Source of the DNA: Deltaproteobacteria bacterium
GTDB lineage: Bacteria > Desulfobacterota > Binatia > Binatales > Binataceae
Assembly (NCBI GenBank): GCA_021831785.1
Contig: JAKBMB010000012.1
Location: 1 to 56,272, forward strand
Direction of reading: 5' to 3'
DNA: 56,272 bases
Under the pieces are notes generated by a model. The model searched no databases and had not been told where the DNA came from. It was given only the letters and a program-made list of their open reading frames with translations. Position numbers and translations under genes: made by a program. Each line of letters starts with the position of its first letter. Positions within the stretch are counted from its first letter, which is position 1. Below, one piece after another: positions 6,552-23,520 of this stretch.

Positions 6552-7502
6552 ATGGCGCGTTCTATAGGGTACAACCTTTTGCAGGTGCTTTTCGTGATAG
6601 GGCTCGCTCCGTTGGTATCGGGCGTCTTGTCGCGGCTTAAGGAGATTGTCCAATCTCGGCGCGGCCCGAGCGTTCTTCAGCCGTACCGAGACTTGCGAAA
6701 GCTGTTCAACAAGGACGAGGCCGTCTCGGAGCACGCGTCATGGATTTTTCGCGTAACGCCGCTGGTCGTTTTCGTCGCGCCGGTCTTTGTCGCCATGCTG
6801 ATTCCGGTACTGACGAGTTATCCGCTGTTCTTCGCTTTTATGGGCGACATGCTCGGCGGCGGCTTCGTGCTCGCGCTCGGAGGGTTCTTCGCCGCGCTGG
6901 CGGCCGTCGATACCGCCAATCCATACGGCCCGATGGGCGCCAGCCGCACCCGCATGGTCGGCTTTTTGGCCGAACCGGTCTTTATGATTGTCTTCTTCAT
7001 GGTTTCGTTCGTCGCCGGCTCGACGATCCCGTATATCGTGCAGCAGCATTGGGTTACGCCGCTGGCAAATTTCTTTGCGCCCTCGCACGTGCTGCTGGTC
7101 ATCGCCTTTATCATGTTGATTATCGCCGAGGCCGGACGGATTCCGGTGGACAACCCGACCGGCCATTTCGAGCTCGCCATGATCGACGAGTCGAAAAGCC
7201 TCGAATATTCGGGCACCGGCATGGCGCTGATGAAATGGGGCGGGCAGATGAAGCTGCTGGTGCTGATGTGCATCTTGCTCAACGTGTTGGTCACTCCTTG
7301 GGGCCTAGCGGCAGATCAGCGGTTGTCGCACGTGCTGTTGGCCGCGGTGCTGGTGCTATTCAAGATCGGCCTTTTCCTGTTCGTGCTGGTCGCCGTCGAA
7401 TCGTCGCTCGCCAAGCTCCGGCTGTTTCGGGTCACCGAGTTTCTTGGCGCGGCGTTCGTCACTTCAGTGGTGGCGATGATCGGCGGCTTGCTGGGTTTCT
7501 AG
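6552..7502 (+). CDS. hyfC: HyfC/HycD-like (NuoH-family) membrane subunit of Ehr complex
   Basis: This 316-residue multi-span membrane protein belongs to the HycD/HyfC/NuoH family, the subunit that connects the hydrophilic arm to the antiporter-like subunits and forms part of the quinone/proton entry path in complex I. Diagnostic stretches are QSRRGPSVLQPYRDLRKLFN near residues 30-55, a DTANPYGPMGASRTRMVGFLAEP loop, and AEAGRIPVDNPTGHFELAMI around residues 190-215, which keeps the acidic residues typical of NuoH. GGAGG lies just upstream of the ATG. It is the first gene behind the fluoride riboswitch and is followed after 10 bp by hyfE. Confidence 0.9.
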   Translation: MARSIGYNLLQVLFVIGLAPLVSGVLSRLKEIVQSRRGPSVLQPYRDLRKLFNKDEAVSEHASWIFRVTPLVVFVAPVFVAMLIPVLTSYPLFFAFMGDMLGGGFVLALGGFFAALAAVDTANPYGPMGASRTRMVGFLAEPVFMIVFFMVSFVAGSTIPYIVQQHWVTPLANFFAPSHVLLVIAFIMLIIAEAGRIPVDNPTGHFELAMIDESKSLEYSGTGMALMKWGGQMKLLVLMCILLNVLVTPWGLAADQRLSHVLLAAVLVLFKIGLFLFVLVAVESSLAKLRLFRVTEFLGAAFVTSVVAMIGGLLGF

Positions 7503-7512
7503 GAGCGTTGCG

Positions 7513-8190
7513 ATGACGGATTTCTCCGCACTGCTGGCATCGCTCAACGGGCTCGCGGCCGGCCTATTCCTGTTGAGTTCATTCGCGCTGGTCGCGACCC
7601 GCCAGGTGCAGGGATGTCTGCGCTTTTATATCGCGCAGTCCGTGTTCCTTGTGGTCTCGGCGCTAATTCTGGCCTTCGGTCTGCGCGCGCCGGACTTGCT
7701 AGCCGTCGCGGCCCTGGATTTGGCGATTAAGCCCATCGTTATTCCTTGGCTGCTGCGGCGGATGGTGCGCGAGGAAATCTTCCGCAGACGCGAGATCGAC
7801 CAAGTCCTAAATATCCCCAGTTCGCTTTTGATCGCGCTTGGGCTGACATTGACGGCGTACTTCTTGAGCGAACAGTTGCCTGCGCCGGCCGGCGCGTTGG
7901 CCCGAATCAATCTGCCGGTAGGCCTGGCGGCGCTGCTGATCGGCACTTACACGCTAGCGGTGCGCCGCGAGGCGGTGCCGCAGCTAATTGGCATCTTCGG
8001 CATCGAGAACGGCGCGCTCTTTGTAGGGATAGCTATCGCTCCGACACTGCCGCTGGTGGCCGAGATGGCTTTCCCGTTCGACATGTTGATCATCGCGCTG
8101 GTCATCGGCATCTTGACTCGCATGACTCAAGAACGGATTGGAACAACCGAAGTCGGCGGACTGGCGAGTCTTAAGGAGGGCGGCGGCTGA
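7513..8190 (+). CDS. hyfE: HyfE-like membrane subunit (NuoK-related)
   Basis: This 225-residue hydrophobic protein with about seven predicted membrane helices matches HyfE of hydrogenase-4 (E. coli HyfE is about 216 residues). Its C-terminal half, IGIFGIENGALFVGIAIAPT, carries the membrane-embedded glutamate typical of NuoK/MrpC relatives. AGGAG precedes the ATG. It overlaps hyfF by one base (TGATG junction), which indicates translational coupling. HyfE is found in Hyf and Ehr complexes but not in the smaller Hyc complex. Confidence 0.85.
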   Translation: MTDFSALLASLNGLAAGLFLLSSFALVATRQVQGCLRFYIAQSVFLVVSALILAFGLRAPDLLAVAALDLAIKPIVIPWLLRRMVREEIFRRREIDQVLNIPSSLLIALGLTLTAYFLSEQLPAPAGALARINLPVGLAALLIGTYTLAVRREAVPQLIGIFGIENGALFVGIAIAPTLPLVAEMAFPFDMLIIALVIGILTRMTQERIGTTEVGGLASLKEGGG

Positions 8191-9635
8191 TGATTTTGTT
8201 TCCGATCGTCGGGCTGCCGCTGGTCGCGGCGCTGATTTCGGCGCTGCCGTTGGGCCGCAGAGTGGCGCCGGCGGCGACGCTGGCGGCGTGTGCGGCGGCG
8301 CTGGCGCTGAGCATCGTGGCGGCGATGCGCGTGGTCGCGGGAGAGCCGGTGGTCGCGGTTGCCAACTGGGCTGCGCTCGACGGGTTAGGCGCCCTCATAC
8401 TGCTGCTGGTGGCGGCGCTGGCGAGCACCGCGGCCCTTTTTTCCTGGAGCTACATCGCCCGCGAGAAGAGCGCGCGCCATCTGCGGCGCTACTACGCAAA
8501 CTACAATCTTTTTGTCTTCGCGATGCTGCTGGTGCCGGCGCTGATCGAGCCTAACCTGGTATGGACCGCCGTCGAGCTCACCACGGTGCTGTCGGTTTAC
8601 CTGGTCGCTTTCGAGAACACTCGAGAAGCGCTGGAAGCAGGCTGGAAGTATTCCGTGCTGACGATCATGGGCGGCGCGATTGCGCTGCTTGGCTTTCTGG
8701 CGATGTTCGCCGCGACGCGATTCGGCGGCAGCGGGCCGTACACCTGGCAGCGGTTGATTTTGCTCGCGCCCGCCGCGCCGCACGGCGTGCTGGAAATCGC
8801 CTTCGTCCTTATTCTGGTAGGCTTCGGGGCCAAAGCCGGATTGGTTCCGCTGCATACCTGGCTGCCGGACGCTCACAGTCAGGCGCCGACTCCGATATGC
8901 GCCTTGCTCTCGGGCATCAAGACCACGCTCGTGCTGTACGTTATTCTGCGGTTCGCCGCAGTGCTTAACGCGTCCGCGAGGGGCAGCGCCGACGGCTGGG
9001 CGACGGTCGTCGGCCTAAGCTCCGTCGGCATCGCGGCGTTTCTGATCATCCAGGTTACCGATTACAAGCGCCTGTTCGCGTTCTCGACGGTCGAGCATAT
9101 GGGGATAATTCTCACCGCCGCCGGACTGGGCGGCGCCGCGGCGCATTACGGCGCCGTCTACCAGATCCTCAATCATGCTCTGACCAAGTCGTTTTGCTTC
9201 TTCGCCGCCGGCGCCGCACTGCTCGCGGTTGACACGCGGCAAATAGCGGACGTGCGCGGCCTTATACGGACCTCGCCGGCGGCGGGAGCGGCGCTTCTAT
9301 TGGGGGGACTCGCCATCGCGGGCGCACCGCCGCTCGCGGTCTTTTTGAGCGAATTCTCGATCCTGCGCGCAGCCATCGCGCGCCAACATTACGTCGCAGC
9401 CGCTTTGCTCGCCGCGTTTGTCATCATTGCCTTCTTCGGCATCCTCTATCACCTCAACCGAATGGTGTTCGGCCGGCCGGAGACGGCCGGCATATCTGTC
9501 ACACCGGTCCAGCTGCCGACAAGCTGCGTGCTGACCTTGGTACTGGCCGCGCTGCCCGTGATCATACTGGGGTTCTACATGCCCGAGCCGCTTCATGTCC
9601 TGCTTCGCATGGCAGCGGATGGTCTTTCGAGGTAA
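8190..9635 (+). CDS. hyfF: HyfF-like antiporter subunit (NuoL/M/N family)
   Basis: This 481-residue proton-translocating-type subunit has around 14 membrane helices. Family marks are EPNLVWTAVELTTVLSVYLV (TM5 glutamate), GFGAKAGLVPLHTWLPDAHS (TM7 lysine and loop), TDYKRLFAFSTVEHMGIIL and a later ALTKSFCFFAAGA segment with the TM12-type lysine. The charged channel residues are preserved, so ion translocation looks possible. It sits between hyfE and hyfG with 3 bp to the next start. Confidence 0.9.
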   Translation: MILFPIVGLPLVAALISALPLGRRVAPAATLAACAAALALSIVAAMRVVAGEPVVAVANWAALDGLGALILLLVAALASTAALFSWSYIAREKSARHLRRYYANYNLFVFAMLLVPALIEPNLVWTAVELTTVLSVYLVAFENTREALEAGWKYSVLTIMGGAIALLGFLAMFAATRFGGSGPYTWQRLILLAPAAPHGVLEIAFVLILVGFGAKAGLVPLHTWLPDAHSQAPTPICALLSGIKTTLVLYVILRFAAVLNASARGSADGWATVVGLSSVGIAAFLIIQVTDYKRLFAFSTVEHMGIILTAAGLGGAAAHYGAVYQILNHALTKSFCFFAAGAALLAVDTRQIADVRGLIRTSPAAGAALLLGGLAIAGAPPLAVFLSEFSILRAAIARQHYVAAALLAAFVIIAFFGILYHLNRMVFGRPETAGISVTPVQLPTSCVLTLVLAALPVIILGFYMPEPLHVLLRMAADGLSR

Positions 9636-9638
9636 GCG

Positions 9639-11228
9639 ATGGCGATCGAACTGGGGCAGATGGCGGCGCAGGCGCAGACACGCTGGCCGGGCAGGGTGCG
9701 CGCGGACACCGAGCAAGACGCGGACTGTGCCTACCGAATTGAATGCGAACCGCAGGCGCTGCCGGAAGTCTGCAACTGGCTTTTCTCCGACCTGGGCTAC
9801 AGCTTCGGCGGCCTGGTCGTGGAGGAGGCAGCGCGATGGGAGCTGCGCTACCTGTTCTATGGCGACCGCGAGCAGGGTTGGGTGCATGTGATCGCTCGTC
9901 TGTCCGCGGACCAGACTCGCGTCCCCAGCGTCAGCACGCTGATTCACGCCGCCGACTGGCACGAGCGTGAGGCCGAAGACCTTTTCGGGTTGGTCTTCGA
10001 GGGCCATCCGCGGCTGGGCGACTTCGTGCTTCACAACGACACCTGGCAAGAGAACCTCACTCCGATGCGTCGCAGTTTCGATGACCGCAAGCCCGCGGCG
10101 TGGCGCACGCCTGACTCTGACTGGAAGCCTCGCCAGATCGTCGAGGAAGCCGGCGCGTTTCTGATGCCGATCGGACCGATATATTCCACAGCGACCGGGC
10201 CGGCGCATTTCGTGCTGGAGACGATCGGCGAAGACGTTATTCGGGCCCAGCCGCGTCTTTTCTATGCCTACCGCGGACTTGAGAAAATAGCGCAGGGCCG
10301 CGCGGCGGAGGACCTTTTGCTGATCGCGGAACGGATTAGCGGGACGTCCGCCTTCGCCCATTCGCTCGGCGCCTGCCAGGCGGTTGAGCGCATCTGCCGA
10401 ATCGAGGTGCCGCCTCGGGCACGCGTGCTGCGCGTGTGGGCCGCCGAATTGGAGCGTCTGCGCCATCATGTCGGCGCCATCGAGGGTATTTGCGAGTCAA
10501 CGGGTCTTGTGGTGGCCGCGGCGCAGGCCGCCATTATCGAAGAGGACCTGCTGCGGATTTCCGGCGCGCTTACCGGCCATCGTTACTTCTTTGGGCTCAA
10601 CGCTTTGGGCGGCCTGACCATAGACCTCGACGATTGCGCCTTGCTCCATGCCGCGTGGCAGGTCAAGGCGGCGGTATCGCGGCTCTCCGAGCTGGAGCGG
10701 ATGTTGAGCATGTCGAGCAGCTTCCTCGACCGTCTGGAAGAGGTCGGCAACGTCGGCGCGAGCGACGCCCGTGAATTCGGCCTTGTGGGGCCGGTAGCCC
10801 GGGCATCGGGGGTCTCGCGGGATTTGCGCCGGGCGCACCCCTATTTGGGGTACGAACGGGTCGACTTCGACGTGCCCTGCGAGACCGAGGGAGACGGCTA
10901 CGCCCGGCTCCGGGTGTTCTTTGGCGAAGCGGCACAATCAGCGCGGATCATTTCGGCCGTGAGCTCGTCGATTCCGCAAGGGGCGTTTCGCGCTCCCCAG
11001 GTTAGTCTCGGGGCCGGCGCGGCCCTGGGCTGGGTCGAGGCGCCGCGGGGCGCTGCTCTGCATTGGATCCGCCTTGCTGATGACGGCGTCGTGGATCGCT
11101 ACCGCATCATCACACCGTCGTTCGCGAATTGGCACGGGTTCAGGCTCGGCGCCGAACGTTTCGCCTTCCAGGATTTTCCGATCATCCTCGCCACGTTTGC
11201 TCTTTCGGTGCATGAAAACGATCGCTAG
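9639..11228 (+). CDS. hyfG: HyfG/HycE-like large subunit (NuoCD type) lacking the Ni-Fe cysteines
   Basis: This 529-residue protein joins a NuoC-like N-terminal domain (about 1-160; HAADWHEREAEDLFGL motif) to a NuoD/hydrogenase large-subunit domain. In HycE the N-terminal metal motif reads ERVCGICGFAH; here it is ERISGTSAFAH (231-241), with Ser234 and Ser237 in place of both cysteines. The C-terminal DPCxxC motif is replaced by ALSVHE (Ser523, Glu526), and the protein ends NDR with no sequence beyond. All four Ni-Fe ligands are therefore lost and hydrogenase activity is not expected. The surrounding fold is otherwise well kept. This is the hallmark of Ehr complexes. No hyp maturation genes or formate dehydrogenase lie in the window. 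Confidence 0.9.
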   Translation: MAIELGQMAAQAQTRWPGRVRADTEQDADCAYRIECEPQALPEVCNWLFSDLGYSFGGLVVEEAARWELRYLFYGDREQGWVHVIARLSADQTRVPSVSTLIHAADWHEREAEDLFGLVFEGHPRLGDFVLHNDTWQENLTPMRRSFDDRKPAAWRTPDSDWKPRQIVEEAGAFLMPIGPIYSTATGPAHFVLETIGEDVIRAQPRLFYAYRGLEKIAQGRAAEDLLLIAERISGTSAFAHSLGACQAVERICRIEVPPRARVLRVWAAELERLRHHVGAIEGICESTGLVVAAAQAAIIEEDLLRISGALTGHRYFFGLNALGGLTIDLDDCALLHAAWQVKAAVSRLSELERMLSMSSSFLDRLEEVGNVGASDAREFGLVGPVARASGVSRDLRRAHPYLGYERVDFDVPCETEGDGYARLRVFFGEAAQSARIISAVSSSIPQGAFRAPQVSLGAGAALGWVEAPRGAALHWIRLADDGVVDRYRIITPSFANWHGFRLGAERFAFQDFPIILATFALSVHENDR

Positions 11229-11341: not shown

Positions 11342-12079
11342 ATGAGTCAATGGGTCATCAAGGGCCTTCGAACCGGCATCAAAAGCACGCGGTATCCGAA
11401 CGTTGCGGAGACCGCCGCGGGGGTCTCGCCCGGGTTTCCCGCGGAAACAAACCTGGGCGGAGCGCTGGCCGAATCCCTGGTGGCAGGCTGCCCGACGCGC
11501 GCTCTCGGCCTTGGGCCGCAAGGCGTCGAAGTTGACCGGCGCCGGTGCGTCCATTGCTTTCGCTGCATACGGGGCGCGAAGCGGCCGCTGGACTGGGAAT
11601 CCGGTTACGAATGGGCCCGTATCGGCGCGGACGGCGCTCACCGAGACCATCGTCTCGGCCGGCCCTTTGGCCGCTCGGTGCATATTCTCGTAGTCGATGC
11701 GGGCGATTGCGGCGCGTGTCTCAACGAGGTCAAGCAGTTGAACAATCCCTACTACAACATGCATCGGCTCGGCTTTTTTCTCACGCCGACGCCGCGGCAC
11801 GCGGACGTGATGCTGGTGGTCGGCGCGGTCACTGAACACATGCGGCACGCGCTGCGCAAGGCGTATGATGCGATGCCCACGCCTAAACGTGTAGTGGCGG
11901 CCGGCGCCTGCGCGCTTTGCGGCGGCGTTTTCGGTCCGAGCTTTATCTGCGGTTCGGGTGCGGCAGAGGTGGTTCCGGTCGATGTGGAGGTGCCGGGTAA
12001 TCCGCCGCCGCCGTTGGCCATCCTGCACGGATTGCTCGTCGCTGTGGGTCGGCGCCCGCCGGCGAACGGTGCCGGATGA
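11342..12079 (+). CDS. hyfI: HyfI/HycG-like (NuoB-family) subunit fused to one-cluster ferredoxin domain
   Basis: This 245-residue protein has a half-ferredoxin at its N terminus: C50-P plus C69-x2-C72-x2-C75, enough for one 4Fe-4S cluster and reminiscent of a shrunken HycF/HyfH. A NuoB/HycG domain follows, with DCGACLNEV (C123, C126), NPYYNMHRLGFFLTPTPRHA and GACALCGG (C190, C193). In relatives the fourth N2-type ligand is the Cys of PGCPP. Here the motif is PGNPP (Asn220), so cluster ligation must be altered, perhaps by C193 or C203, or the cluster may be lost. About 110 bp separates it from hyfG, and it overlaps hyfB by 4 bp (ATGA). Confidence 0.88.
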   Translation: MSQWVIKGLRTGIKSTRYPNVAETAAGVSPGFPAETNLGGALAESLVAGCPTRALGLGPQGVEVDRRRCVHCFRCIRGAKRPLDWESGYEWARIGADGAHRDHRLGRPFGRSVHILVVDAGDCGACLNEVKQLNNPYYNMHRLGFFLTPTPRHADVMLVVGAVTEHMRHALRKAYDAMPTPKRVVAAGACALCGGVFGPSFICGSGAAEVVPVDVEVPGNPPPPLAILHGLLVAVGRRPPANGAG

Positions 12080-14223
12080 TCGCGATGGCAGCGCTTCTAA
12101 TCGTCATTCTCGCGCTGTGCCTGGCCGGCGTGCTCTTGCCGCTGGCCGTTGGCGAGCATCGGATTGCCGCGATAGTGGGCTGGCTGGGCGCCTTCGCGTC
12201 GAGCGGGCTTTTGTGGTTTGGCGGCGCCTCGCTTTTCGCCGGCGCGTCGTTTCATTCGGAGCTGTGGACGATTCCTTCGCTGGTCACTTTGACGCTGTCG
12301 CTTGATCGGCTCTCCGCCTTGTTCCTATTCATCGCCGGGCTGGTTCTGCTTCCCGGCTCGCTCTTCGCCGCGGGCAATCTGCGGGGCTATCTCGGCAGGT
12401 ACAGCCTCAGGGGATTCAGCGCGGCCTACTTCGCGTTGTTCGCGGCCATCGTGTTAATCCCTCTGTCGGCGGACGCCGTTTCCTTCCTGATGCTATGGGA
12501 GTCGATGTCCATACTCACCTATCTGCTGGTGAACTTCGAGCACGAGACGCAGGACCACACGCGCGCGGGGTATCTGATGCTCGGAGTCGGCGAGGCAGGG
12601 ACGCTGCTTGTCGCGCTCGGCTTCCTGGTGCTCTCCGGCAACGGAGCGCTTGAGTTCGCTGCGATGAAGACAACCGCTATGAGCGCGAGCGCGCACGCGC
12701 GATGGGCGGTGTTCTTGCTCACCTTCTTCGGCTTTGGCGTGAAAGCGGGGTTGATACCGGTGAATTTCTGGCTGCCGCAGGCGTACACGGCCGCGCCGGC
12801 GGCGTTCGTGCCGGTGCTCGCCGGCGCGACGCTGAACCTAGGGCTCTACGGAATCATCCGGGTCAACGGCGTTTTGCTGCCGGCGGCCACCGTCGGGCCG
12901 GGCCTGGTCGCGCTCACGATCGGCAGCGTTACGGCGCTGCTGGGCATCCTGTACGCGACGACGCAGAGCGATCTGAAAACCCTGCTCGCGCATAGCTCGA
13001 TCGAGAACGCGGGGATTATCACGGCTGCTCTCGGCGCGGCGTTGGTCTTCGTCGCGTCCGGCCATCGCGCTGCCGCGGCCATAGCGTTTGCCGCGGCTCT
13101 GTATCACATGATCAACCACTCGGTTTACAAAACACTGCTGTTTTTCGGCGCCGGTTCGATCGAGTCGAGCGCCGGTACGCGCGATATTGACAAGCTCGGC
13201 GGTTTGATCAGGAACCTGCCCTTAACCGCGCTATTTTTTTTAGTTGGAGCGTTGTCGATTTCCGCCCTACCGCCGTTCAACGGCTTTGTCAGCGAATGGC
13301 TCGCTTTGCAAACGCTGCTGCAGAGCGCCGCACTTAAGTCCGTCGGCGTGAAGGTCGCCTTCGCTCTTTGCGGCGCGATTCTGGCGCTTACGGCCGCGCT
13401 TGCAGTGACCTGCTTCGTCAAGGCGTTCGCGATGGGGTTTCTCGGCATGTCGAGATCGGAACCGGCGGCGCCCGCCGGCGAACGCCAAGCATCGGCGACC
13501 GCTGCGATGGCGATGCTCGCCGTGCTGTGCATCGTGCTTGGAGTGGCTCCGACCTATGTGATTCCGGTGCTTGACCGAGCGCTAACGCCGATGGGGGTCG
13601 AAGCGCGGGTGGCTGACGCCCTGGTGCCTCCGTTTTTTGCCGCCGACGCTCATCATCATGAGTTGCCCGCGGATTTCGTCGCCGACTTCCGCGCGCTTGG
13701 AGCGCAGCTCGGCCAGAGCGTCTTGCCCGGCCGGGGACTCGTCGTGCTGCGCCGTGGGGGAAAAGCCAATCCGGTAATTTTCGCCATGTCCACGTCGTAC
13801 ATGGCGATAGTCCTGATGCTGATGCTGCTCGTCGCGGCGGCGGTGTTCCGCGGCGTCGTCGCGCGCCGGCGTTGCGTGGTAAGACGGCCCGTGTGGGCCG
13901 GCGGCATCCGCCGCTTGCTGCCTGGAATGACGTACAGCGCCACGGGTTTCTCGAATCCGGTGCGCGTGATTTTCGAGGCCGTCTTCATGCCCACGACGGT
14001 CGAGGATACGCGCCGGACGATCGGCCGACACTTCCGCGCCGTGATTCGGCGCACTCGGCAGGAGAATCATGTGCTGGATCGTCTGGTTCTGGACCCGGCG
14101 GCCGACGCCGCGCGCTGGGTTGCCAACGGATTCGCCCGCATGCATCACGGCTTTCTGAACGCTTATGTTGCGTACGGGCTCCTGGCTTTGACGGTCGGAC
14201 TGCTAATCGCCAGGTTCTCCTGA
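12076..14223 (+). CDS. hyfB: HyfB/HycC-like antiporter subunit (NuoL family)
   Basis: This 715-residue, strongly hydrophobic NuoL-type protein carries a long C-terminal extension, as in HyfB/HycC. Conserved sites are LMLWESMSILTYLLVNFEHE (TM5 glutamate), GFGVKAGLIPVNFWLPQAYT (TM7 lysine), LLAHSSIENAGII, YHMINHSVYKTLLFFGAG (TM12-region lysine) and PPFNGFVSEW. The C-terminal part (about 615-715) holds the TYSATGFSNPVRVIFEAVF segment and a final membrane helix. Its start overlaps the hyfI stop. It is the last clear gene of the six-gene complex. Confidence 0.9.
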   Translation: MIAMAALLIVILALCLAGVLLPLAVGEHRIAAIVGWLGAFASSGLLWFGGASLFAGASFHSELWTIPSLVTLTLSLDRLSALFLFIAGLVLLPGSLFAAGNLRGYLGRYSLRGFSAAYFALFAAIVLIPLSADAVSFLMLWESMSILTYLLVNFEHETQDHTRAGYLMLGVGEAGTLLVALGFLVLSGNGALEFAAMKTTAMSASAHARWAVFLLTFFGFGVKAGLIPVNFWLPQAYTAAPAAFVPVLAGATLNLGLYGIIRVNGVLLPAATVGPGLVALTIGSVTALLGILYATTQSDLKTLLAHSSIENAGIITAALGAALVFVASGHRAAAAIAFAAALYHMINHSVYKTLLFFGAGSIESSAGTRDIDKLGGLIRNLPLTALFFLVGALSISALPPFNGFVSEWLALQTLLQSAALKSVGVKVAFALCGAILALTAALAVTCFVKAFAMGFLGMSRSEPAAPAGERQASATAAMAMLAVLCIVLGVAPTYVIPVLDRALTPMGVEARVADALVPPFFAADAHHHELPADFVADFRALGAQLGQSVLPGRGLVVLRRGGKANPVIFAMSTSYMAIVLMLMLLVAAAVFRGVVARRRCVVRRPVWAGGIRRLLPGMTYSATGFSNPVRVIFEAVFMPTTVEDTRRTIGRHFRAVIRRTRQENHVLDRLVLDPAADAARWVANGFARMHHGFLNAYVAYGLLALTVGLLIARFS

Positions 14224-14308
14224 CGCGGCTTGACCTGGGACATGCGGGCGACTTAAGCTAAAGCCAGCGGCGGTGGAGTCCGCCGATAACCGCCGACCAG
14301 GCCAATGA

Positions 14309-14340
14309 CTCCTACAGCGGGCAAGGACCCGAGGTAGGAG
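14309..14340 (+). other. strong hairpin between hyfB and the next gene
   Basis: CTCCTAC (14309-14315) pairs with GTAGGAG (14334-14340). After a symmetric AG/AG internal loop, CGGG pairs with CCCG around a CAAGGA apex. No T-tract follows, so it is not a standard terminator. It could be an mRNA processing or stabilising structure, or an attenuator with its 3' arm just upstream of the TTG-started gene at 14395. Confidence 0.45.
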
Positions 14341-14394: not shown

Positions 14395-15216
14395 TTGTTG
14401 GAACGTCTGACCCACAATTTCCGCCTGCTGCTCAGAGCTTTCGGCGGCGCCGTTTGCCCGCTGTGCGCCGCGCGAGAGGCGCTGGAGCGCGACGAAATTG
14501 CCCGCATAAGGGCGCAAGCCGGGACCAGCGCGGCGTTGTGCGGCAAACATCTGGAAGCGTATCTGGCCGAGGCTGGCGACCGGGTGTCCCAGGCATGGCG
14601 GACGTGCAAGGCGCTCGAAGCGGTGTGGAGCGCCGGCGCGCCGGGATGCCGTATCTGTGCGCGCCTTGGCGCGGCCGAGACCGGGCTTGTGCACTCGATA
14701 CGCCGGGTCGACGCCGGGATGCGCTTTCGCAAGGCGCTGGAGACGGCGCCACTTTTCTGCCGCGAACATGAGTGTCTTATCGTGGCCGGCGAAATACCCG
14801 AAAACTTCGCTGAGGTGCAGCGCGCCAAGCTTCGGAGTTTGCGCGACGCTCGCGCGCAGGCGGCGCTGTGCAACAGCGATGAGGTCAAGCCGCTGATCTC
14901 GTCCGCGCTCGCTTACCTCGGTCAACCCGCTCCAGGGCGAGCGCTGCCTGACTATCACGATAATCCGGTGGAATCAGCGAACGCGGAGTGTCACATATTC
15001 GAAGCCTGGGATAACGAACAGCAACTCCAACACCTCGGTGACCTGGAGGCCGAGGCCGCGAGCCTACGCTATAGGAATGCCGTCTTGTCCGAGGAAAACC
15101 GGCGCCTTAAGCTCGCGCATGCCGCGTCGGAAGCGACGCGCCGCGACCTTGAGAAAGACCGCGCTGAACTTCTTGCTGCGAAAGACGAGATCGATGCGGG
15201 CAGCATAAAGCGTTGA
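14395..15216 (+). CDS. putative zinc-binding Cys/His protein with C-terminal coiled coil
   Basis: A TTG start with a CGGAGG ribosome-binding site 5-6 bp upstream gives 273 residues. Two similar halves each hold a CxxC and a CxxH: CPLC (about 21-24) with CGKH (about 49-52), and CRIC (about 84-87) with CREH (about 122-125). This implies two zinc-type sites in a duplicated fold resembling DUF6062-like proteins. The last 60 residues (GDLEAEAASLRYRNAVLSEE onward) form a charged coiled coil. It follows hyfB by about 170 bp on the same strand. The function is unknown; a regulator or assembly factor is possible but unproven. Confidence 0.7.
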   Translation: MLERLTHNFRLLLRAFGGAVCPLCAAREALERDEIARIRAQAGTSAALCGKHLEAYLAEAGDRVSQAWRTCKALEAVWSAGAPGCRICARLGAAETGLVHSIRRVDAGMRFRKALETAPLFCREHECLIVAGEIPENFAEVQRAKLRSLRDARAQAALCNSDEVKPLISSALAYLGQPAPGRALPDYHDNPVESANAECHIFEAWDNEQQLQHLGDLEAEAASLRYRNAVLSEENRRLKLAHAASEATRRDLEKDRAELLAAKDEIDAGSIKR

Positions 15217-15234: not shown

Positions 15235-15930
15235 ATGCGAATTCTCATCATCTCGGATCTGCACGCGAATTTCGAGGCGCTTTGCGCGCTGCCGCGCGGC
15301 TATGACGAGCTTTGGGTGCTCGGCGATCTGGTGAATTACGGTCCCGACCCCGCGGCTACGATCGACTTCGTAAGGTCTCACGCCTCGCTCGTCGTTCGCG
15401 GCAACCATGATCATTCGGTGGCGTTCGGCGCCGACTGCGGATGTTCGCCGCGTTTCGCCGCGATGGCTGCGGCGACGCGTGACTACACGATGTCGGTGCT
15501 TTCGGCCGAAGACCGGCGGTTCCTGCGCAATCTACCGATCTCCGAACGCCGACAGGTCGGCGATTACACGTTCTTCTTGTGCCACGCGACGCCATCCAAT
15601 CCGCTATACGAATATCGCCCGCCGGACTCGCCGGCATGGCAACGCGAGGAAGAGGTTAGTCGAGGAGCGAACTACATTCTGGTCGGTCACACCCATGTGC
15701 CGTTTTCGCGCGCGTTCGGAGAGCACACGGTGGTCAACCCTGGAAGCCTCGGTCAGTCGAATGCGGGCGACCCGCAGGCACGCTATGCGGTCTGGGAGGA
15801 TGGCCGGATCGAACTGAGGGCCGTTGCATATCCGGTCGAAACCACGGTCATGAAGATTCTCTCGCTTGCGTTTCCTGACGAAATAAAGCGCGACCTGGCC
15901 GGCGTCCTGCGCGCCGGGAGAACGCCGTGA
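15235..15930 (+). CDS. metallophosphoesterase (calcineurin-like)
   Basis: This 231-residue protein has the dimetal phosphoesterase motifs in order: SDLHANFEAL (D-x-H, about 8-10), GDLVNYGPDP (GD, about 31-32), RGNHD (GNHD), a histidine in LCHATPSN and GHTH (GHxH). It resembles the YfcE/bacterial protein-phosphatase-like group, but the substrate cannot be read from the sequence. Its start lies 18 bp after the Cys/His gene, and its stop overlaps the next start by 4 bp, so these genes form an operon. Confidence 0.88.
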   Translation: MRILIISDLHANFEALCALPRGYDELWVLGDLVNYGPDPAATIDFVRSHASLVVRGNHDHSVAFGADCGCSPRFAAMAAATRDYTMSVLSAEDRRFLRNLPISERRQVGDYTFFLCHATPSNPLYEYRPPDSPAWQREEEVSRGANYILVGHTHVPFSRAFGEHTVVNPGSLGQSNAGDPQARYAVWEDGRIELRAVAYPVETTVMKILSLAFPDEIKRDLAGVLRAGRTP

Positions 15931-16970
15931 GTTTCCCCACGTCGAGCTTGGGTTCGATACCCCGCGTGGGTGGCGCCAAGGACGAGCGCGAGCTTGCCGA
16001 TCTGGCTCGCAAGCTCAGGTCGCTGCGCGACGGGGACTTGGCCGTCGTCGAGGCGGTTGCGGTCGGCGCCCCGGCGGCCGCGGTCTTGCGGGAAGTCCTG
16101 TTCGAGAGGGATACGGCCGGGATATTCGAGCCGCGCCGGCGCGCCGTCCAGGCGCTGGCCGCCCTCGGTGCTTACGACGTGCTGCGGGAGTTTGTCGCAT
16201 CCTGGGAAGCCGTCGCCGACCCGGTCCAACGGATGGGCGACGAAGCGGTGCTCGGCGTGGCGGCACGGGCGCTGGGCGCCGCGCGTGACGAAGAAGCTTT
16301 TCAGGTGCTTTTTGACGCCGTGCGAAGACATGCCGTGGCCGGCGTGATCGAAGCGCTCGGCGAGTATCGGCGCGTCGAGGTGATTCCGATTCTGGCCGAC
16401 GCTCTGGAGGACGACCTCAACCGCGCGGCGGCGCAGGACGGGCTGCGAAAGCTGGGTCAAGACGCCTTGCCCGCGGTGGTCGAGATCGCGTTGCGCGCCG
16501 TAATCGGCCCGGCGGGACGCGAAGCTTTCTCCGGGGTGCGACGTCGTCGAAGCGCCCTGGCGCTGCTGCTCGAGCTGGGCGTCAACGCCGATGCTTGGGA
16601 GAGGCTGCGCGGGTTGGTTGACGACGCGGACGACGAAGTGGCAGCCCTGGCATGCAGGATCGGCATGGCCGCGGCCGACGACGCCGGAAAACGCGTGTGC
16701 GCGCAAAGGCTGGTGAGGCTGCTGTCGCGCGCCGCCTGGTTCTCCTATTCGGAAATAGAGGACTGCTTGAGCGCAAATTTTACGTTTGCAAACGAAGCCG
16801 TCGACCGGGCGCTGCGCGACTCGCCTGACGACGGCGGCGATGATGCCGCACGATCGAGGTTAAAGCGATCGCTGCAAAAAATTAAGGTGAAGGTCTCGGC
16901 CACACGCGCGCAGGAACTCGCTCCCGATGCCTGGGGCGGCGCGGCGGGTGGCCGGAGACCGCCGACATAG
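15927..16970 (+). CDS. HEAT-repeat-like protein
   Basis: This 347-residue protein is rich in Ala, Leu and Arg, with repeated helical pairs such as RRRAVQALAALGAYDVLREF, VIEALGEYRRVEVIPILADA and DDEVAALACRIGMAAADDAG. These suit HEAT/ARM-type protein-binding scaffolds. I see no enzyme motif. The start overlaps the metallophosphoesterase stop (GTGAG context at 15927), indicating coupling. It is probably a partner of the adjacent phosphoesterase; this is inferred from context. Confidence 0.65.
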   Translation: MSFPTSSLGSIPRVGGAKDERELADLARKLRSLRDGDLAVVEAVAVGAPAAAVLREVLFERDTAGIFEPRRRAVQALAALGAYDVLREFVASWEAVADPVQRMGDEAVLGVAARALGAARDEEAFQVLFDAVRRHAVAGVIEALGEYRRVEVIPILADALEDDLNRAAAQDGLRKLGQDALPAVVEIALRAVIGPAGREAFSGVRRRRSALALLLELGVNADAWERLRGLVDDADDEVAALACRIGMAAADDAGKRVCAQRLVRLLSRAAWFSYSEIEDCLSANFTFANEAVDRALRDSPDDGGDDAARSRLKRSLQKIKVKVSATRAQELAPDAWGGAAGGRRPPT

Positions 16971-22205: not shown

Positions 22206-22815
22206 CTCTTAACCCGGATTTCCGTTTTCTAGGTGAACTACCAATTTGATACAACGCCAGAAAAGCCCTGATGGATGCTGGTTTGGATGCGAATGCGGCG
22301 GTGCGGAGGAGAGCAGGCGGTGGGTGAGTCGCAAGAATGGCCCTTTCAGCTCTCGTTCAACAGCTCCCTGCGGGTCGAGTTCCAGGGCGCGCGAGCTGGG
22401 TGAGCGTGATCCTCTATAATCTCGGCGACCCTTCGGCTCCCCTTGGGGGCGCCGCTTGGTGCGGCGGCTCTTCGGTAGCATACTGCGCAGGATCGCGATG
22501 CTGCCGTCGCCAGCCGGGCAGGACGAGCGCAGAGCGGGGCAAGGTTTCGATGACGACGCTGGGGCGGCAGGAGAAGTGTCTGGGGAAGCGCTCGGAAAAA
22601 GGGTCATTTCCGGGCGGCGCGTGCCCGCCGGATGCGAAACCGCCCCCTCCCGGCGCCGCTGAAAACACCGCAGACCAAAATCGGCTAAACCCCTCGCCGA
22701 GGACGACCGCTTGTCCTATACGCTCGGTTGGAATCGGAGAACCAAAACAGGAATCCCGGATACATATGACGAGGTCGGGTGCGCGCGGCGCAGGACGCGA
22801 GCGTGAAAGTTGAAG
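22206..22815. other. gene-free spacer with GC-rich inverted repeats
   Basis: Frames on both strands are Arg/Pro/Ser-rich and match nothing I recognise. A GC-rich stretch (GACCCTTCGGCTCCCCTTGG near 22428 with facing GCCGCTTGGTGCGGCGGC) can fold into hairpins and resembles dispersed intergenic repeat elements. I see no gene. Confidence 0.4.
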
Positions 22816-23520
22816 ATGAAAAAATTTTCAATTGTTACTTTGTTGATCGGCGGTGGGTTCGCCTTGACGGTGGCGGCTGGCGGCCCGGCATACGCCCAGA
22901 CGGCCGCGACCGATTCAACCTCGTCCAAGTTTATAATCTGCTCCGGTCAAACTTACGCGCTTTGCGCCGTCGCCAGTTGTTTCGTGATGGACGGCCTCGC
23001 ATACTGCGAGTGCGATGTGAAGTCAGGCGATAGCATCAGCTTGTCCGACTCGTTCGACAAGGGCGACAATGTCTGCTCGGTAAATGCCGAAGGTGCGGAC
23101 AACGGGTTCATGGTGAGCACCTTCAGCGTACCCGACTCGGTCGTCGCGCCGACCGGAAACCAGGCCCTCTACACCTGTCCGGCCAGGACTTCCAACGGCG
23201 CTTACGCGCAGTGCGACGGCGGTTTGTGCTTCACCAGCACCGAGGGAAAATCGTTTCCAGGTTTCAGCGCGCCCCTGAATGACGGCCAGATCATCTGCTC
23301 TTGTCCGATTGCCGTGGCCGACCCGGCCACGGCGCGGATTGGCTACCAAATCGCCGGTCCCTACCCCTGCCAAAAGTCTTTCTTCAAAAACTGCAACCGC
23401 GCCACCGCTAACAAGAAGACCGGCTCGCAGATCTATGTCGGCGCGCCGACGGGCACGGCGCGCCTCCTGACACGCTTGCTATACGGAAGCGTTCCGACGT
23501 TGAACCAGTGTTTTCCGTAG
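22816..23520 (+). CDS. cysteine-rich exported protein, function unknown
   Basis: The ATG at 22816 follows a TTG two codons earlier. The first 26 residues (MKKFSIVTLLIGGGFALTVA, then AGGPAYA) form a signal peptide with cleavage likely after AYA-Q. The mature protein of about 208 residues contains 14 cysteines, an even number compatible with seven disulfides in the periplasm or outside the cell. Segments such as FIICSGQTYALCAVASC and GQIICSCPIAVADP look internally related. I recognise no family. An isolated gene with low-GC start and a long upstream spacer. Confidence 0.65.
   Translation: MKKFSIVTLLIGGGFALTVAAGGPAYAQTAATDSTSSKFIICSGQTYALCAVASCFVMDGLAYCECDVKSGDSISLSDSFDKGDNVCSVNAEGADNGFMVSTFSVPDSVVAPTGNQALYTCPARTSNGAYAQCDGGLCFTSTEGKSFPGFSAPLNDGQIICSCPIAVADPATARIGYQIAGPYPCQKSFFKNCNRATANKKTGSQIYVGAPTGTARLLTRLLYGSVPTLNQCFP

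Follow-up and report, generated by a model that had tools for sequence, protein, structure and literature searches.

Fluoride riboswitch regulons were reportedly described by Baker in 2012 as including genes for a 'formate hydrogen lyase'. Genes of that name also follow the crcB motif in the accessible text of Weinberg 2010 (PMC2864571), and a 2024 review, in its available portion, ties the riboswitch-linked 'formate hydrogen lyase' to formate fermentation (PMC11139923). A separate literature concerns complexes called Ehr (energy-converting hydrogenase-related): according to the accessible parts of the respective papers, the Ehr of comammox Nitrospira has no CxxC motifs and no known function (PMC10284858), that of Margulisbacteria likewise has no CxxC motifs and was suggested to partner with a formate dehydrogenase (PMC6349859), and that of Geobacter sulfurreducens was said never to have been investigated (PMC7894505). 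Our literature search, conducted mostly among papers outside subscription and hence no proof of novelty, found no published link between Ehr and fluoride or between a fluoride riboswitch and a hydrogenase. The operon described here brings these two bodies of work together.

The operon lies in a window of 56,272 nucleotides, by which we mean the whole stretch of DNA that was analysed (contig JAKBMB010000012.1 of assembly GCA_021831785.1, from a Deltaproteobacteria bacterium of the Binataceae). Its six genes are, in order, of the hyfC, hyfE, hyfF, hyfG, fused hyfH/hyfI and hyfB types (Table 1), and alignment indicates that the antiporter-type subunits keep the Glu and Lys that HyfF and HyfB have at transmembrane positions. 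Pfam searches revealed no electron-donor or dehydrogenase gene in the operon, and no formate dehydrogenase gene among its six genes, the three genes downstream and one upstream ORF. The Cys-rich protein behind the second riboswitch carries CPLC and CRIC motifs.

Table 1. The operon, its flanking riboswitches and the genes that follow (positions in the window).
Feature	Position	Strand	Evidence and remarks
Fluoride riboswitch aptamer RF01734	6356..6423	+	cmscan 48.5 bits against a gathering score of 34, E 1.9e-10; 5' of the operon
NuoH/HyfC-like membrane anchor subunit	6552..7502	+	Pfam NADHdh, E 9e-32; aligns with E. coli HyfC/HycD
HyfE-like membrane subunit	7513..8190	+	NCBIfam hydrogenase 4 membrane subunit, E 5e-18, under the curated cut-off; no Pfam match
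HyfF-like antiporter-type subunit	8190..9635	+	Pfam Proton_antipo_M, E 5e-48; transmembrane Glu/Lys of HyfF kept (alignment)
Large subunit of HyfG/HycE type lacking the four Ni-Fe cysteines	9639..11228	+	alignment, fold
Fused small subunit (ferredoxin part and HyfI/NuoB-like part)	11342..12079	+	Pfam, alignment, fold
HyfB-like antiporter-type subunit	12076..14223	+	NCBIfam hydrogenase 4 subunit B, E 2e-149, under the curated cut-off; alignment
Second fluoride riboswitch	14260..14321	+	cmscan 45.0 bits, E 2.8e-9; separates the operon from the genes that follow
Cys-rich protein behind the second riboswitch	14395..15216	+	no match in Pfam or NCBIfam; 6 other loci have a related gene downstream of the operon
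Metallophosphoesterase	15235..15930	+	Pfam Metallophos_2, E 7e-21; related gene in 9 other loci
HEAT-repeat protein	15927..16970	+	Pfam HEAT_2, E 7e-7; related gene in 10 other loci

The large subunit is encoded by a frame of 529 residues uninterrupted by stops, and its best solved relative by sequence is E. coli HycE (formate hydrogenlyase chain 7z0s_E, E 4e-65), with about 30% identity to E. coli HycE/HyfG. The preliminary description of this DNA had claimed that all four Ni-Fe cysteines are lost, and alignment with E. coli HycE and HyfG bears this out. The L1 motif, RVCGICGFAH in HycE/HyfG, reads RISGTSAFAH in the window, DPCYSCTDR at the L2 motif of HycE reads ALSVHENDR, and the four ligand positions are occupied by Ser234 (codon 10338-10340), Ser237 (10347-10349), Ser523 (11205-11207) and Glu526 (11214-11216). 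No substitute cysteine occurs at positions neighbouring the site in this alignment, and a frameshift is excluded because the flanks of both motifs align without gaps and the same region is open in nine relatives of the same family. Arg529 aligns with the R of DPCYSCTDR and is the last residue of the protein; the stop follows directly, and any C-terminal extension after the DPCxxCxx(R/H) position of HycE/HyfG is absent.

Scanning named genomes brought up 192 relatives, and the analysis covers the best 80 of them; several of these are near-copies of one another, and L014-L016, L018-L022, L153 and L155 were left out of the counts as likely repeats. Among these 80 and the window, position 234 is Ala in 42, Ser in 27, Asn in 10 and Cys in 2, and position 237 is Thr in 40, Ser in 32, Ala in 7 and Cys in 2. 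The C-terminal LSxxExDR is almost invariant in the same set (position 523, Ser in 80 and Cys in 1; 526, Glu in 81/81; 528, Asp in 80 and Tyr in 1; 529, Arg in 79, Lys in 1 and one unaligned), and in conservation residues 510-529 come 17th among 510 segments of twenty residues, though relatives were retrieved via the peptides EGDGYARL and QDFPII[LM]A, so that sampling favours a conserved C-terminus. A single cysteine at the ligand positions is found in L068, L073 and L106, two are found in L081, and all four in none of the 81 loci. The nine same-family relatives are 65-76% identical to the window's large subunit with the last ten residues identical, and S234, T236, S237, S523, H525, E526, N527, D528 and R529 are invariant in the ten same-family sequences, window included. 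Judged from the sequences, the loss of the Ni-Fe ligands is real, clade-wide and selected, and only the C-terminal pair is fixed; the earlier reading of a specific loss rather than decay holds. The set of three serines and one glutamate to which that reading drew attention is indeed present in the window, but the L1 serines are not a feature of the clade, in which Ala or Asn and Thr or Ala are as common at these positions, and the glutamate is complex I-like. Since complex I NuoD also closes with [E/D]-x-D-R (PEIDR in the NuoD of L052, SDVDR in E. coli NuoCD), Glu526 is not peculiar to the clade. A new metal site composed of these four residues was considered and rejected, as its first two positions vary and its glutamate falls within the E-x-D-R terminus.

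These observations bear directly on the published name. An active formate hydrogenlyase aiding fermentation under fluoride stress is what the accessible statements in PMC11139923 and PMC2864571 suggest, and the HycE-like fold and the operon layout would fit, but we regard this as extremely improbable with every Ni-Fe ligand absent in the window, the full set in no locus of the clade, no formate dehydrogenase among the operon genes and a large subunit that ends without the C-terminal extension. For the riboswitch-linked clade a formate hydrogenlyase identity is ruled out by the ligand loss, and its large subunit, on the alignments, cannot be part of a [NiFe] hydrogenase. The assignment as Ehr-type, put forward in the preliminary description, stands: the subunits are group 4-like and have no Ni-Fe ligands. 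What the literature calls 'formate hydrogen lyase' genes under fluoride riboswitches probably corresponds to the genes of this clade, named earlier.

An AlphaFold2 model of the large subunit (60 sequences, pLDDT 90.2) matches HycE chain 7z0s_E best (Foldseek TM 0.93; VIA-align Z 48.4, rmsd 2.3 over 521 residues), followed by NuoD-type chains of complex I (VIA-align Z 44.5-46.8 over about 350-363 residues). The 50 VIA-align matches listed include no MBS chain, which proves nothing. The small-subunit model (AlphaFold2, 47 sequences, pLDDT 90.2) matches MbhJ, HycG and NuoB chains. Because the predicted folds are intact, the Ni-Fe pocket appears to be repurposed or emptied rather than destroyed. 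One possible new occupant is quinone, in a quinone-reducing, complex I-like enzyme; the close NuoD-type structural matches and the C-terminal E-x-D-R shared with NuoD speak for it. We nevertheless hold this to be very unlikely, as the NuoD loop GPxHPSxHG reads GPIYSTATG in the window, the adjacent cysteine pair of NuoB is a CxxC in the window's small subunit, and the position equivalent to Nqo4 Y87 is presumably Gly235 (the aligned sequences being E. coli NuoCD and L052). The quinone-site His and Tyr are H38 and Y87 of Nqo4, according to the accessible text of PMC7684303. At residue 187 the window has Gly in place of the loop Glu of HycE EPGHF, which is kept in 53 of 60 alignment rows; in the window's own family 7 of 8 rows have Gly or Ala there.

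In the fused small subunit one of the two ferredoxin clusters of HyfH/HycF is lost by alignment, while the ferredoxin part holds one [4Fe-4S] set (C50, C69, C72 and C75) that is kept in 78-80 of the 81 loci. Three cysteines of the proximal cluster, C123, C126 and C190, are kept in all 80 readable loci; the fourth, in the motif PGC, is PGN in the window (residue 220) and is lost in 51 of the 80. The window also has an extra cysteine, C203, within the motif SFxC, and across the 80 loci 37 combine a PG motif without Cys with SFxC, 27 have PGC without SFxC, 2 have both and 14 neither. Many relatives thus show an apparent exchange of ligands, and in the window C203 could replace the PGC cysteine. 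Mapped on the tree, loss of the one and gain of the other give suggestive counts, but the independent pairs number no more than 3-4, which is not enough to test the link. Neighbouring genes, including these small subunits, were called as stop-to-stop frames, some small subunits being merged into longer ones. The preliminary description had missed both these altered proximal cysteines and the fluoride riboswitches that flank the operon.

The upstream riboswitch ends 128 bases 5' of the first gene, and the two RF01734 matches that bracket the operon are the only ones above the cut-off in a genome that is 96% complete, with a third just below. No sigma-70 promoter was found around the riboswitch, and the search for an intrinsic terminator there gave a single terminator-like match, which lies on the opposite strand; the mean in shuffled sequence is 0.5. 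A custom model built from 11 riboswitches was scanned over the window and its 80 best relatives, 68 of these 81 loci reaching far enough upstream to be tested and 13 ending too early. With this model 60 of the 68 carry a riboswitch on the same strand as the large subunit, 3.0-5.3 kb ahead of it; Rfam adds six in the same range and L126, where it lies at 2.6 kb directly before the HyfE-like frame. An upstream riboswitch is thus present in 67 of the 68 testable loci (67 relatives and the window), and in the sole exception, L074, the one match lies 6.5 kb upstream and falls under the Rfam cut-off. In L079, L083 and L088 the riboswitch sits about 5 kb upstream with a dynamin-like gene between it and the operon, and L017, L154 and L156, outside the 80, have a riboswitch as well. 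Control loci, whose identities were verified by their motifs, have none in 30 (14 other Cys-less, 7 group 4 hydrogenases, 8 complex I and 1 [NiFe] locus of the window's own genome), with a 16.8-bit match at L145 (E 0.07) left uncounted and L150, which extends only about 1.5 kb upstream, testing little; Rfam likewise finds none in eight loci of the other Cys-less class (class II). Whole-genome searches, which covered 40 of the 80 loci in 39 genomes, found the riboswitch in 38 of these genomes (37 above the cut-off) as against 4 of 14 control genomes. Within the window's family, whose genomes partly overlap the 39, it is present in 10/10 genomes with the complex versus 9/25 without (Fisher p 0.0005). 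In all these comparisons the loci with a riboswitch are related MAG contigs and not independent samples.

Genes that recur beside the operon in the 81 loci fall into clusters identified by Pfam from one or two members each: dynamin-like (24 loci), enolase (11), HEAT (11), phosphoesterase (10), DUF190 (9), CrcB (7), DUF190-CBS (6) and MutS-like (6). Enolase is an enzyme inhibited by fluoride, and CrcB is a fluoride channel. In same-family genomes that lack the complex, nine riboswitch regions were compared: similarity shows DUF190-CBS in 7 and CrcB in 4, and adding a Pfam search raises CrcB to 8 of the 9. Together, the riboswitch linkage and the neighbour genes make a role of the operon in the fluoride response very likely.

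Such tight linkage also invites the idea that the pocket binds fluoride or HF and that the complex is a fluoride exporter or a fluoride-gated pump. The near-complete riboswitch linkage accords with this, as does the distribution of CrcB, which has no match in the 96%-complete window genome; within the family, 4 of the 10 genomes with the complex lack it versus 1 of 25 without (Fisher p 0.017, in MAGs that are incomplete). Against it, CrcB accompanies the complex in 21 of the 39 named genomes, so the complex is not simply a substitute exporter, and a CLC-F-like gene, albeit split in two, is present in the window genome. We consider this reading quite unlikely. The CLC gene in question carries GREGT and GEVTP in two pieces (L184 and L185; contig C13, about 22387-23200) with an in-frame TAG in the assembly, and two further CLC proteins of the genome show none of the CLC-F signatures looked for, which were taken from the accessible text of PMC11139923.

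In a tree of 54 rows the riboswitch-linked clade forms one side of a branch with SH-aLRT 100; its neighbour is the other Cys-less class (SH-aLRT 95), and hydrogenases and NuoD fall outside, though the deep order is uncertain owing to a quick search and long NuoD rows. The 35 named rows bear 11 NCBI phylum names, nearly all of them MAGs, and L065, a contig labelled as a Nitrospira japonica MAG, falls inside the clade. A tblastn search of PLSDB (E 1e-60) found no plasmid-borne relative. Ordinary versions of both relatives are also present in the organism: its genome (3.68 Mb) encodes a NuoD homologue (L164), and a contig other than the window has large-subunit frames in which both [NiFe] motifs occur (L165). 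The second Cys-less group 4-like class (L030, L032-L039, L042, L043, L045, L046, L049 and L051) has the motifs [RK][VI]SGD[ST] and, at the C-terminus, NKS[FV]N[QGL]SYSG[HN]DL, and may correspond to the Geobacter-type Ehr. Six further group 4-like large subunits (L040, L041, L044, L047, L048 and L050) keep DPCFSC and have an L1 of the form ERI-TGA-G-I-TGA-GYIHS, with TGA and then Cys in L048; a conserved 7-bp hairpin lies shortly 3' of the second TGA or Cys position in these genes, which resemble those of [NiFe] hydrogenases whose metal site carries one or two selenocysteines (UxxU).

As to what the complex does, we lean slightly towards an Ehr-type ion pump that has no Ni-Fe site, is induced by fluoride and makes good the acidification and the drop in proton motive force (PMF) that HF causes. 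A rise in fluoride would switch the operon on through the upstream riboswitch, and the membrane arm would then move protons, or swap cations for protons, presumably in the direction that counters HF-driven acidification and PMF loss; the restored PMF would also power fluoride efflux. According to the accessible text of PMC11139923, fluoride exposure acidifies the cytoplasm, and Na+/H+ antiporters are, after exporters, the next commonest class of genes under fluoride riboswitches. Restoration of pH and PMF appears the most economical role, because the antiporter subunits are intact and the cell is acidified when HF enters. Electrons most likely still run through the soluble arm; a donor in the cytosol would pass them to the single [4Fe-4S] cluster in the ferredoxin part, from which they would go on to the proximal cluster and then to a small acceptor in the former Ni-Fe pocket. 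That seven cluster cysteines are kept argues for a working electron wire, whereas a fourth proximal ligand that changes argues that the end of the path is altered. By analogy with archaeal MBS, the proximal cluster itself probably performs the terminal chemistry; the accessible text of PMC7684303 proposes a catalytic three-cysteine proximal cluster for MBS, with evidence from mutants and cluster interconversion.

The soluble arm may instead be a structural or gating remnant on a redox-silent antiporter, a fluoride-induced, PMF-driven, Mrp-like cation/proton exchanger. The absence of the four Ni-Fe ligands, the missing PGC ligand in the majority of loci and the 14 loci with neither that cysteine nor SFxC, the operon without a dehydrogenase gene and the single remaining ferredoxin cluster are all as such an exchanger would have them. 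A dead arm would not need the seven remaining cluster cysteines, which are nearly invariant, nor the high conservation of the C-terminal segment of the large subunit, albeit in the region that the search peptides favour. We rate this exchanger as somewhat unlikely and, with modest confidence, favour a redox drive with chemistry at the proximal cluster, though we acknowledge that G187 and the missing proximal cysteine in the window count against our proposal and could also mean a weakened redox arm. A bolder suggestion, which we consider unlikely, is that this complex I relative is a dedicated fluoride-defence machine, in which the emptied pocket beside a cluster with an open or swapped ligand senses or moves fluoride or HF, or houses a stress-specific reduction that drives proton and fluoride export.

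The present case joins the Ehr complexes of unknown function with the fluoride-controlled 'formate hydrogen lyase' of the riboswitch papers, and offers a testable physiological role for one widespread branch of the complex I superfamily. It also provides a natural example of a machine of the complex I type that works with neither Ni-Fe nor an evident quinone site, and natural cluster variants beside an energy-coupling pocket. Compared by published descriptions, Ehr complexes share with the operon in the window a set of group 4-like subunits (large, small, HyfE, NuoH and antiporter types) in which the Ni-Fe ligands are missing; the clade of the window is tied to fluoride riboswitches, whereas the other Cys-less class (SGD[ST]; SYSG) is not. 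E. coli formate hydrogenlyase and hydrogenase 4 share the fold, the C/D fusion and the gene order hyfC-E-F-G-(H)I without hyfD, but the window has neither the Ni-Fe ligands nor a formate dehydrogenase, and its one ferredoxin cluster, in place of two, is fused to the small subunit. For the redox chemistry the nearest precedent is the Pyrococcus MBS (Mbx) sulfane sulfur reductase, which, in the accessible text of PMC7684303, shares the loss of the Ni-Fe site, the absence of the quinone-site residues and a questionable fourth proximal ligand; MBS keeps two of the four Ni-Fe cysteines where the window keeps none, and loses its first proximal cysteine through a shortened loop, whereas the window keeps the CxxC spacing and changes the cysteine of PGC. 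With complex I NuoD and NuoB the window shares the fold and the C-terminal E-x-D-R, here ENDR, but not the quinone-site loop or the adjacent cysteines of cluster N2.
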